Shown here: positions 29,452 to 56,085 of the stretch, in pieces | Position numbering within the stretch: the stretch's first letter is position 1 | How the letters are laid out: every line of letters begins with the position of its first letter | Source of the DNA: Arthrobacter crystallopoietes BAB-32 | GTDB taxonomy: Bacteria; Actinomycetota; Actinomycetes; Actinomycetales; Micrococcaceae | Assembly: GCF_000328305.2 (NCBI RefSeq) | Contig: NZ_ANPE02000079.1 | Span: 1-64,000, forward strand | Length of the DNA stretch: 64,000 nucleotides | Reading direction: 5' to 3' | Position numbers and translations under genes: made by a program | Notes under the pieces: model-generated | The model's input: only the letters and a program-made list of their open reading frames with translations | Databases searched by the model: none | Told to the model about the DNA's origin: nothing

Positions 29452-30072
29452 ATGTCCGAAAGCAATGACGTTTCAACGGTTGATTTCTGGTTCGACCCGG
29501 CCTGTCCGTTCGCCTGGATTACTTCCCGGTGGATGCTTGAGGTCGAGAAGGTCCGGGAGCTCAAGGTCGAATGGCACGTCATGAGCCTGGCTGTCCTCAA
29601 CGATGGCCGCGACGAACTGCCGGACAGCTACAAGGAATTCCTGAAGACGGCCTGGGGCCCGGTCCGCGTAATCATTGCCGCACGGGAGCAGCATGGCAAT
29701 GAGTACGTCAAGAGGCTCTACGATGCCATGGGTACCCGGATCCACAATGAGGGTAACAAGGACACCAGCGCAGTCATCGCTGCTGCCTTGGCGGAGGCCG
29801 GCTTGCCGTCCGAGCTGGCAGCCTACGCCACCTCGAGTGAATTCGACGAGCAGCTGCGGGCCAGCCACGAGGAGGGAATCTCCCTGGTCGGCGACGAAGT
29901 CGGGACACCGGTCGTCTCGTTCAACGGGACGGCGTTCTTCGGTCCGGTCCTGACCAGGATTCCCCGCGGCGAACAGGCGGGGCGGATCTTCGACGGAGCG
30001 GTGGCCCTCGCCGACTTCCCGTACTTCTACGAAATCAAGCGCTCACGGACCACGAGCCCGGAATTTGACTGA
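29452..30072 (+). CDS. DsbA-family thioredoxin-fold protein, Rv2466c-like, single active-site Cys
   Basis: The 206-residue protein aligns by eye with mycobacterial Rv2466c, a mycothiol-dependent reductase of the DsbA fold: [41 protein letters not shown] (cis-Pro loop) and [12 protein letters not shown]. Rv2466c has a CPWC active site; here residues 18-21 read CPFA, so the resolving Cys is missing and chemistry would be monothiol or need mycothiol. ATG 29452 has GAGGAG upstream. It follows clpX by 52 bases and faces convergently toward valS. Cytoplasmic: no signal peptide. It may act as a mycothiol S-conjugate handling enzyme or FrnE-like protein. Confidence 0.85.
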
Positions 30073-30082
30073 TTGATCACGC

Positions 30083-30116
30083 CATAGGTTTTCCAGAAAT
30101 TTTTGGAATACCTATG
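30083..30116. repeat. AT-rich inverted repeat, 13-bp arms
   Basis: CATAGGTTTTCCA (30083-30095) and TGGAATACCTATG (30104-30116) are reverse complements with one mismatch, with an 8-base A/T loop. It starts 10 bases after the DsbA-like stop and is far more AT-rich than its surroundings. It could be a terminator for that gene, a regulator site, or part of the structured element that follows. Confidence 0.6.
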
Positions 30117-30119
30117 CGT

Positions 30120-30345
30120 GTCGGCTTGCATGAGAGTATAAATATCTATACGCATCCCCCGAAAGATGCGGGAACGAACACCAAAGATTCAGAGACAAGC
30201 CAAGTGGACCCAGTTCCACTGACTGCCAGTCCGTGACGGGACTCGGAAGACCTGAAGATCCGAGGAGTTCGCGAGATTCCAAACGTCACTAGGAGTCATA
30301 GAGTCGAAGCCCCACCAACGGCTACACGCTGATGGGGCTTCCCCT
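30120..30345 (+). ncRNA. Candidate structured noncoding RNA
   Basis: This gene-free stretch between convergent genes begins with an AT-rich promoter-like segment (GTATA-AATATC-TATAC, 30136-30151). It continues with a series of hairpins: CGCATC/GATGCG with loop CCCCGAAA (30151-30170), AGTGGA/TCCACT (30203-30220), AGTCC/GGACT (30228-30243), and a terminator-like GAAGCCCCA/TGGGGCTTC (30306-30341). No ORF of meaningful length with a ribosome site is present. The layout fits a small RNA of about 190-200 nt read on the plus strand, but transcription is not proven and no Rfam family was recognised. Confidence 0.35.
30306..30341. terminator. Terminator hairpin between the 30.1-kb element and valS
   Basis: GAAGCCCCA (30306-30314) and TGGGGCTTC (30333-30341) form a 9-bp stem with an 18-base loop; CCCCTATTT follows on the plus strand. 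It lies 19 bases past the valS stop (minus strand), so it can serve valS as well as anything transcribed rightward. Confidence 0.7.
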
Positions 30346-30359
30346 ATTTAACCGCCGCC

Positions 30360-32990
30360 TCAGGCCGGCGTCTCCGCCGGCGCGAGCTCCACTCCGTAGA
30401 CAGTCAGCTCACCATCGGCTTCGACAATCTTCAGTTCCCGCGCGTTGCCCGCAGCCTTGAGGTCACCGATACCGGCCTGCAACTGCGCCACCTGGGCAGC
30501 AGAGCCACTGATGACGGCAGTGAGCACTTCGGTGCGCTGCTTGACCTTCGCCTCCGACTTCGCCTTGCGAATCCCGCCCAAAGCCTGGCCGACAGTGCCA
30601 AGAAGATCCTTGTCAGCACCGGCCGCGATGGGGGCCAAAGCCGTGCTGGCGGGCCATGCCGACTGGTGCACCGACCCGGCGCGCCACCAGCTCCAGACTT
30701 CCTCGGTTGCGAACGGCAGGAACGGTGCGAAGAGCCGCAGCAGGGTATCGAGGGTAGTGGCAAGAGTCGCCAGAACGGAGGCCTGCTCCTCGGCGCCGGC
30801 AGCACCGTAGGCCCGGTCCTTGACCAGTTCGACGTAATCGTCGGTAAAGGACCAGAAGAACGTCTCGGTGATTTGCAGGGCCCGAGCGTAGTCATAGTTC
30901 TCGAAGGCCGCACTCGCCTGGTCCACCACATCGGACAGCTGACCGAGCAGCGAAGTGTCCAGTGGATTGATGACGGCTGCTGCGTCCTTGGTGATCACCG
31001 AGTCCTGCGTTGCACCGAGGTTAAGGACGAACTTGGAGGCGTTCAGCAGCTTGATGGCCAGGCGGCGGCCGATCTTCATCTGCGCAACCTCGTAGGCGGT
31101 ATCAGCGCCCAGCCGTGCCGAGGCAGCCCAGTACCGTACAGCATCTGCGCCGAACTGCTCCAGAACATCGGTGGGCACCACAACGTTGCCCTTGGACTTG
31201 GACATCTTCTTCCGGTCCGGGTCCAGGATCCATCCGGAAATCGCTGCGTGCTTCCAAGGGGCACAGGACTGCAGCGCGTCACCCCTGACGACCGTCGAGA
31301 ACAACCAGGTCCGGATGATGTCGTGGCCCTGCGGGCGCAGGTCGAAGGGGAAGACCTTGCCGAAGAATTCCTCGTCGCGGCTCCAGCGACCCACAATCTG
31401 TGGCGTCAGCGACGATGTGGCCCACGTGTCGAGGACGTCGGTATCGCCGGTGAAGCCGCCGGGCACGCCGCGCTGGTCTTCGCTGTAGCCTGGCGCAGCG
31501 TCAGCCGCGGGATCCACCGGCAGCATGTCGTCGGCGGGCAGGATCGGGTTGTCGTGATCCGGATTGCCGGCGCCGTCGAGGGGGTACCAGACTGGAATCG
31601 GCACGCCGAAGAACCGCTGCCGGGATACCAGCCAGTCCCCATTGAGGCCTTCGATCCAGTTTTCGTACCGCGACCGCATGAAGGCTGGGTGGAAATCGAT
31701 GTCACGGCCGCGTTCGATCAGACGTTCGCGCCGGTCGGCGTCCCGTCCGCCGTTGCGGATGTACCACTGGCGTGAGGTGACAACTTCCAGCGGCTTGTCG
31801 CCCTTTTCGAAGAAGTTGACGCTGTGCATCATCGTCTTCGGCTCGCCGTCCAGCTCCCCGGCGCCAGCCAGGAGTTCGACGACCTTTTCCTTCGCGGAGA
31901 AGACCGTCTTGCCTGCAAGTTCGGCAAAGTGCGCTTTGCCTTCCTCGGAGGTGATCCACTCGGGCGTGTCCGGGACGATGCGGCCGTCGCGGCCGACGAT
32001 GGCTCGGGTGGGCAGCTGAAGTTCACGCCACCAGGTGACGTCGGTCAGGTCGCCAAAGGTGCAGACCATGGCAATGCCTGCGCCCTTGTCCGGCTTGGCC
32101 AGCGGATGCGCCTTGACCTCCACCTCCACGCCGAAGAGCGGCGAGGTCACCTTGGTGCCGAAGAGCTTCTGGTACCGCTCGTCATCCGGGTGGGCCACGA
32201 GGGCCACGCAGGCCGGCAGCAGCTCGGGCCGGGTGGTCTCGATATGGACCTGCTCGCCGCCGGCCGTCCGGAAGGGGTACCGGTAGTAGGCACCGGGCAT
32301 CTCGCGGTCTTCCAGCTCGGCCTGGGCAACGGCGGTCCGGAACGTCACGTCCCAGAGAGTCGGGGCTTCTGCCATATAGGCATCGCCGGCGGCGAGGTTG
32401 GCCAGGAAGGCCCGCTGCGACACGGCGCGGGATACGTCGTCGATAGTGCGATAGGTCAGGTCCCAGTCGACCGACAGGCCCAGGGTGCTGAACAGGTTCT
32501 CGAAGACCTTCTCGTCCTCGACCGCCAGCTGCTCGCAGAGCTCAATGAAGTTGCGGCGGGACACGACATCGAAATCACGCTGGTTCTTCGCTGGCTTGGC
32601 CGGCGGCTGGTAGTCCGGGTCGTAGCCCACCGCCGGATCGCAGCGGACGCCGTAGTAGTTCTGCACACGCCGCTCGGTGGGCAGGCCGTTGTCGTCCCAG
32701 CCCATCGGGTAGAACACGTTCTTGCCCCGCATCCGCTGGTAGCGCGCCAGGACGTCGGTCTGCGTGTAGGAGAACATGTGTCCCACGTGGAGCGAACCGG
32801 AGGCGGTCGGCGGAGGAGTGTCGATCGAGTAGACCTGGCTGCGGTCGGTGTCCGGGTTGAACTTGTAGGTCCCCTCCTCGCGCCAGCGGCGGGACAGGGC
32901 ATCCTCGAGCCCTTCGAGGGCGGGCTTGTCGGGGACGTTTACGGAAACGGGCGTGTCTGTGCCCGGGGAATGTTCTGCCATGCCAGCCAT
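30360..32990 (-). CDS. valS: Valyl-tRNA synthetase
   Basis: This 876-residue class I synthetase charges tRNA-Val. The HIGH-type motif is HVGH (68-71) in PPPTASGSLHVGH, and KMSKS occurs as KKMSKSKGN near 595. The editing (CP1) domain and the anticodon-binding helical domain (DYVELVKDRAYG) are present, and the C-terminus ends in a short tail without the long coiled coil of E. coli ValS, as in other actinobacteria. ATG 32990 is used; a second ATG three codons later is equally possible, and neither has a clear ribosome site. It is convergent with the DsbA-like gene and divergent from the DUF488 gene. Confidence 0.95.
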   Translation of the reverse strand: MAGMAEHSPGTDTPVSVNVPDKPALEGLEDALSRRWREEGTYKFNPDTDRSQVYSIDTPPPTASGSLHVGHMFSYTQTDVLARYQRMRGKNVFYPMGWDDNGLPTERRVQNYYGVRCDPAVGYDPDYQPPAKPAKNQRDFDVVSRRNFIELCEQLAVEDEKVFENLFSTLGLSVDWDLTYRTIDDVSRAVSQRAFLANLAAGDAYMAEAPTLWDVTFRTAVAQAELEDREMPGAYYRYPFRTAGGEQVHIETTRPELLPACVALVAHPDDERYQKLFGTKVTSPLFGVEVEVKAHPLAKPDKGAGIAMVCTFGDLTDVTWWRELQLPTRAIVGRDGRIVPDTPEWITSEEGKAHFAELAGKTVFSAKEKVVELLAGAGELDGEPKTMMHSVNFFEKGDKPLEVVTSRQWYIRNGGRDADRRERLIERGRDIDFHPAFMRSRYENWIEGLNGDWLVSRQRFFGVPIPVWYPLDGAGNPDHDNPILPADDMLPVDPAADAAPGYSEDQRGVPGGFTGDTDVLDTWATSSLTPQIVGRWSRDEEFFGKVFPFDLRPQGHDIIRTWLFSTVVRGDALQSCAPWKHAAISGWILDPDRKKMSKSKGNVVVPTDVLEQFGADAVRYWAASARLGADTAYEVAQMKIGRRLAIKLLNASKFVLNLGATQDSVITKDAAAVINPLDTSLLGQLSDVVDQASAAFENYDYARALQITETFFWSFTDDYVELVKDRAYGAAGAEEQASVLATLATTLDTLLRLFAPFLPFATEEVWSWWRAGSVHQSAWPASTALAPIAAGADKDLLGTVGQALGGIRKAKSEAKVKQRTEVLTAVISGSAAQVAQLQAGIGDLKAAGNARELKIVEADGELTVYGVELAPAETPA

Positions 32991-55908: not shown

Positions 55909-55924
55909 GCTATGCTGGCGGCAA

Positions 55925-56006
55925 GTGACACGGGGTGCCGGCTGGGCCGGCTGAGATGGATACCCGTTGAACCTGAACCAGTTAGGACTGGCGGAGGGAA
56001 TGTCAC
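55925..56006 (+). promoter_or_regulatory. TPP riboswitch (THI element)
   Basis: P1 is GTGACA/TGTCAC. The conserved CGGGGTGCC, GGCTGAGATGGATACCCGT, TTGAACCTGA and CCAGTTAGGACTGGCGGAGGGAA segments are all present in order. It controls the thiD-tenA gene starting 80 bases downstream. A 9-bp hairpin CATCGTTCA/TGAACGATG (56052-56077) directly abuts the GGAG ribosome site (56077-56080) and is a plausible expression platform acting on translation. Confidence 0.96.
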
Positions 56007-56085
56007 ATGGCTCCATCGCCGGTCCGCTACTGCGGATTCGGCGCCGCCATGCATCGTTCACTCCGTCCTGAACGATGGAGCCAGC

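Follow-up and report, generated by a model that had tools for sequence, protein, structure and literature searches.

The question raised by this locus is whether the 287-base gap at positions 30073-30359 of the window (the whole 64,000-nucleotide stretch of Arthrobacter crystallopoietes BAB-32 DNA analysed here) is a mere spacer between two genes or encodes something itself. On its left side, the gap is bordered by a dsbA-like gene on the + strand, which stops at 30072, is assigned to the Rv2466c family (PF22234; mycothiol-dependent nitroreductase family) and follows clpP, clpP2 and clpX as the last gene. On its right side lies valS (30360-32990, - strand), which is convergent with the dsbA-like gene. 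A preliminary description made from the sequence alone had pointed to a gene-free gap between convergent genes with a sharply different composition, and this was confirmed (GC of 0.46-0.55 in the gap against about 0.60-0.69 in both flanks). The same description read the gap as a possible unannotated small RNA, with a regulatory or replication-related site as another option. The + strand of the gap has a folding 6 standard deviations more stable than that of dinucleotide shuffles, and the 201-nt segment which we regard as the RNA (30149-30349) gave a z score of -3.9 by itself. Elsewhere in the window, a TPP riboswitch was detected at 55921-56017 on the + strand (RF00059, 67.2 bits).

We constructed a covariance model from 30 sequences and searched 295 Micrococcaceae genomes from 32 genera, a search that the preliminary description had proposed. 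The model matched 88 genomes from 10 genera (E<=0.01), with a best E value of 5e-65; one of the 10 genera (g32) was reached by weak matches only, and the matches of genomes G117 and G191 were weak too. The g32 gaps, when inspected, were 59-63 nt long with an ordinary terminator. By BLAST alone, the RNA was detected in 68 of the 295 family genomes. When 396 genomes from the order and 297 from the class were searched with the model, strong scores were obtained in this family only, a result to be read with the filters of such large-set searches in mind, which drop weak matches; far relatives outside the family may be missed. A pattern search with the 3' hairpin (P7, below) gave carriers in Arthrobacter, Pseudarthrobacter, Paenarthrobacter, Sinomonas, Paeniglutamicibacter and Specibacter among the matches listed. 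The gene order dsbA - RNA - valS was kept in nearly all carriers examined, and no copies were found in phages, plasmids or viral contigs. In the genus of the window, all 10 genomes have the RNA, with 82-92% identity in the search that detected it there, and the segment 30149-30349 is 80-92% identical to those of the nine relatives. The coding DNA of dsbA is 78-83% identical within the genus (50-64% at third positions), mostly below the RNA, and the identity falls to 16-52% in the 5' part of the gap; the valS values, distorted by end gaps, were left out of this comparison.

The consensus structure was obtained with RNAalifold and by inspection, and consists of seven helices, P1 to P7, all on the + strand; P1 and most of P6 were missed by RNAalifold, added by hand and then tested. 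The 5' hairpin P1 (30151-30170, CGCATC/GATGCG) has the loop CCCCGAAA at 30157-30164, which is C-rich in the genus of the window only and is GAAA or similar in other genera; changes on both sides were found in the P1 pairs. P2 (30175-30271) is a long-range closing helix that pairs 30175-30179 with 30267-30271 and 30181-30182 with 30264-30265. Inside it, P3 (30188-30256) pairs 30188-30192 with 30252-30256 (UUCAG/CUGAA), as predicted by RNAalifold and by covariation. The hairpins P4 (30203-30220, AGUGGA/UCCACU) and P5 (30228-30243, AGUCC/GGACU, loop GUGACG at 30233-30238) follow, and P4 is longer and has an additional stem in other genera. P6 (30275-30297) has its stem at 30275-30280/30292-30297 and a loop that holds CGUCAC at 30284-30289. 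The last hairpin P7 (30300-30349) pairs 30306-30314 with 30333-30341 and has additional inner pairs, and its sequence is almost invariant. The three small hairpins recognized in the preliminary description thus correspond to P1, P4 and P5, and its final terminator hairpin to P7 (30306-30341). P2, P3, P6 and the contact between the P5 and P6 loops had been missed; these were visible only by comparing the relatives.

We examined this structure in two alignments. In a clean alignment (A4), made from 30 sequences with MAFFT and without fitting to the structure, 92.7% of the cells pair (28-43% with the partners slid), double changes occur at 31 pairs (20.9 when shuffled) and the covariation score is 0.236 (0.105 in the control). 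In the wider alignment A5, whose 85 rows include 12 antisense ones and were fitted to the model, 92.2% of the cells pair, the double changes number 52 against 34.0 when shuffled, and the covariation score is 0.328 against 0.121 in the control; the shuffled and slid controls give no formal probability for any of these values, and the effect is large, also in the unfitted A4. For P2, 98.6% pairing and double changes in five of the seven pairs were found in A4, and double changes in all seven pairs in A5. Across 73 sequences, compensatory changes were found in almost every stem, with covariation far above the controls. Several unpaired positions are nearly invariant as well (AGA at 30185-30187, GA at 30194-30195, A30247 and G30249). 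A conserved structured RNA is thus almost certainly encoded at 30149-30349, and the small-RNA reading of the preliminary description gains support from both the homologues in 88 of 295 genomes and the compensatory changes in the stems. The covariation is of the RNA type, which makes the replication-related site unlikely.

The loops of P5 (GUGACG) and P6 (CGUCAC) are complementary. This pairing was not part of the covariance model, and the 73 sequences contain 58 distinct loop pairs. The longest Watson-Crick run between the two loops has a mean of 6.1, compared with 2.9 (maximum 3.2) in shuffled loops, and when G-U pairs are counted, 57 of the 58 distinct loop pairs can form an uninterrupted run of six or more pairs, the exception being L109. 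The variants include GUGACA/UGUCAC, GUGAUGC/GCAUCAC, GCAACGA/UCGUUGC, GCAGCG/CGCUGC and GGUGACAC/GUGUCACC, and paired changes occur in several genera. Judged from these sequences, the interaction between 30233-30238 and 30284-30289 is a kissing loop, whose complementarity has been kept through many paired changes.

The sequence from the window alone has a more stable alternative fold, in which GUGACG and CGUCAC form an ordinary helix (-68.4 kcal/mol, versus -61.2 kcal/mol for the consensus fold with the kissing pairs left out). This predicted minimum-energy fold may be a real second state, and the RNA could then be a switch in which a ligand or a protein selects between the ordinary helix and the kissing loop, both being permitted by the window sequence. 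However, there is no + strand gene downstream, since valS is convergent, and all the helices and the kissing loop are compatible with each other and covary together. We therefore consider such a two-state RNA improbable.

A promoter is expected upstream of a stand-alone RNA gene, and a motif of the form TTG-N3-N17-(C/A)A(C/T)A(A/C)T was found at a fixed distance before the RNA in 59 of the 73 sequences, compared with 1.75 in shuffles. These data support the assignment of the motif as a sigma-A-type promoter. A plain promoter scan of the window found no consensus promoter, because the genus of the window has TATAAA or TATATA as its -10 element and no TTG in its -35 element. The putative promoter in the window (30114-30142, + strand) consists of a weak -35 element ATGCGT (30114-30119), a 17-bp spacer and the -10 element TATAAA (30137-30142), and is supported by its position and by the relatives. 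The -10 element is included in the TATA-rich segment that the preliminary description had noticed, which is present at 30136-30149. The assignment to the + strand rests on this promoter, as the counts of G-U versus A-C pairs do not decide the strand. The start of the RNA is placed at about 30150 and its end at about 30349, giving an inferred length of about 200 nt. Downstream of P7 there is a weak U-tract, CCCCUAUUU or CCCCUUU, and the hairpin is predicted to be the terminator of the RNA; it probably also ends the transcription of valS on the - strand.

In most of the relatives, a strong hairpin is found upstream of the promoter, in some cases ending in a T-run that overlaps the -35 element, and the mean minimum free energy of the upstream 65 nt is -27.6 compared with -17.5 when shuffled. 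The place of this hairpin is occupied in the window by the AT-rich imperfect palindrome at 30083-30116. The inverted repeat of the preliminary description is real, with 17-nt arms (30083-30099/30100-30116, 88% complementary) instead of the 13 bp given there. Members of the genus differ in its sequence, and several of them have a weak hairpin. From its position, we read the palindrome as lying outside the RNA and as probably being the terminator of the clpP-clpX-dsbA operon. The proposed small-RNA make-up of promoter, hairpins and terminator, with a transcript of 190-200 nt, is supported as regards the hairpins and the promoter, which lies at a constant distance in the relatives, and P7 is the predicted terminator, but the palindrome is not a part of the RNA. 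In many genomes from genera g9, g7 and g19 (L018, L025, L029 and others), the upstream hairpin has a core of conserved sequence, GAAYTAC-N5-7-GTAGTTC, some 45-70 nt before the start of the RNA. Sinomonas (g7) keeps this core in part even where its halves pair imperfectly, and the core may be the operator of a regulator.

The gap could also contain no RNA gene, but a DNA site, or the terminators of dsbA and valS with a structure arising by chance. Both ends of the gap are indeed terminator-like, and convergent genes need terminators. Against this stand the compensatory changes, which affect the kissing loop as well as the helices, the promoter at fixed spacing and a conservation above that of coding DNA. 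Furthermore, in relatives without the RNA the two genes make do with a short gap and share its terminator: in the family members which do not have the RNA and in which dsbA and valS are still adjacent, most gaps measure 56-190 nt and contain a single ordinary terminator, and three longer gaps (381-761 nt) were found among the genomes without a model match. The comparative data appear to have largely refuted this explanation already, and we regard it as barely credible.

Within genus g24, the dsbA-valS gap of G059 (L255) is 190 nt long with an ordinary terminator and the RNA is absent, whereas its close relative G032 has the RNA; this contrast is a natural loss or gain. On a DsbA tree, the presence of the RNA requires about ten changes, at least three of them on supported branches, in a tree that is based on a single short gene and has many weak forks. 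The RNA is either an old element with losses or one that was gained several times. From this patchy distribution, including the absence in the congeneric G059 and the several changes on the tree, the RNA is considered dispensable, which favours an accessory regulator over an essential RNA. Second, diverged copies at other loci were found in two strains, G226 and G176 (L102 7032-7224 and L103 7077-7269, both on the - strand), which are 96% identical to each other and keep the same fold and complementary loops. In one strain, the second copy lies next to genes for a universal stress protein and for a TPP enzyme; in the other, its neighbours are genes of the PucR type and with DUF4383, and Hsp20 is encoded close by. 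A paralogue search gave no further strains beyond these two, plus one 36-nt terminator match.

We compared the RNA with known families. No match to the 4227 families of Rfam 15 was obtained with the window RNA or with five diverse homologues, one of which gave a sub-threshold antisense match (ctRNA_pGA1, 25.7 versus 45 bits). The family is therefore new in the sense that it is not described in Rfam 15. No report of this transcript was found among papers on sRNAs in Arthrobacter; one of them describes four sRNAs on plasmid sequences, which, judging from its main text, do not include this one. In its length of about 200 nt, its own promoter and its stand-alone, single-copy gene, the RNA resembles 6S RNA. 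However, 6S RNA is a long interrupted rod with a large central bubble, whereas separate 5' and 3' hairpins, a branched core and a kissing loop are predicted here. A covariance search for 6S RNA (RF00013) found none at the locus or in the genome, and was positive in five control genomes, so that identity with 6S RNA was ruled out by both the search and the fold.

Ms1 of Mycobacterium and Streptomyces is likewise an actinobacterial stand-alone structured RNA of a similar size class, which is recognized by its synteny with HAD-IB hydrolase/oxidoreductase genes and by its 6S-like fold (PMC9130861). The present RNA lies between dsbA (Rv2466c) and valS and has another fold; it shares neither the synteny nor the fold, and judged by these two features it is not Ms1. 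Arthrobacter is among the genera with a predicted Ms1 in the table of that study, and Ms1 may exist in some species named Arthrobacter. In the one HAD-IB locus of this genome that was checked, there is no Ms1-type gap but an ORF for a small basic protein (L299, about 1160-1266, + strand). This ORF is lysine/arginine-rich and well conserved in the genus, and its product looks like a small ribosomal-type protein. CoRP RNA, which is 516 nt long, lies between tRNA genes and occurs only in Corynebacterium (PMC11077062), is similar as a lineage-restricted structured RNA from an actinobacterial group where 6S RNA and Ms1 were not found, but the present RNA differs from it in flanks and length and is not CoRP. 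Kissing-loop RNAs in general likewise have two hairpin loops, complementary over 6-8 bases; unlike in those, the kissing here would take place within one RNA, between hairpins separated by the strands of long-range helices.

The RNA very probably has a real job in the cell. The explanation that we favour, with some reserve, is a stand-alone noncoding RNA gene of about 200 nt on the + strand, which has helices P1-P7 and the kissing loop, is transcribed by sigma-A RNA polymerase and acts in regulation by binding a protein. The polymerase would start the RNA near 30150, and the RNA would end at P7, the hairpin that would close valS transcription too. The kissing loop would lock the RNA into a single compact shape, and this shape, not an exposed pairing region, would do the work. 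From the compact fold as the working part, we infer that protein binding is the most likely mode of action.

Most described bacterial sRNAs act by antisense pairing, and the RNA could accordingly be a trans-acting antisense sRNA, in which the structure protects and mRNAs are bound by a single-stranded part, for example the P4 region, GAAGAC or the C-rich loop of P1. The nearly invariant unpaired positions would fit such a role. However, the conserved unpaired positions nowhere form a long stretch, the best-kept segments belong to the helices or to the kissing loop, and the C-rich P1 loop is peculiar to the genus of the window, so that we consider antisense pairing a rather unlikely mode.

As to the partner in the protein-binding explanation, RNA polymerase or the transcription machinery is our first candidate, a guess with perhaps one chance in a few of being right. 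It is named because the genome gave no 6S RNA match and the checked HAD-IB locus is without Ms1, and because other stand-alone RNAs of this size bind the polymerase elsewhere, which is circumstantial. A special case of the favoured explanation, whose likelihood overlaps with it, is that the RNA replaces 6S RNA and Ms1 in the Arthrobacter group, the part that CoRP plays in Corynebacterium. Its size, its single copy and its promoter are in keeping with an abundant RNA. In Micrococcus luteus, neither 6S RNA nor Ms1 was found, and other RNA polymerase-binding RNAs were predicted in such bacteria (PMC11077062). On the other hand, the fold is not 6S-like, many family members live without the RNA, and so does one genome of the g24 pair; we regard this replacement as possible but doubtful. 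More speculative still is a new class of RNA polymerase-binding regulator that has a kissing-loop fold unlike 6S RNA and Ms1 and would serve the Arthrobacter group, for which 6S RNA and Ms1 have largely gone unreported.

Our analysis adds a well-supported RNA gene of common soil bacteria that is absent from the Rfam library and whose kissing-loop architecture is supported by numerous paired changes. The locus can be deleted, and would thereby allow a conserved stand-alone RNA to be probed among bacteria in which 6S RNA was not detected and little points to Ms1, with strains of the same genus with and without the RNA as natural comparisons.
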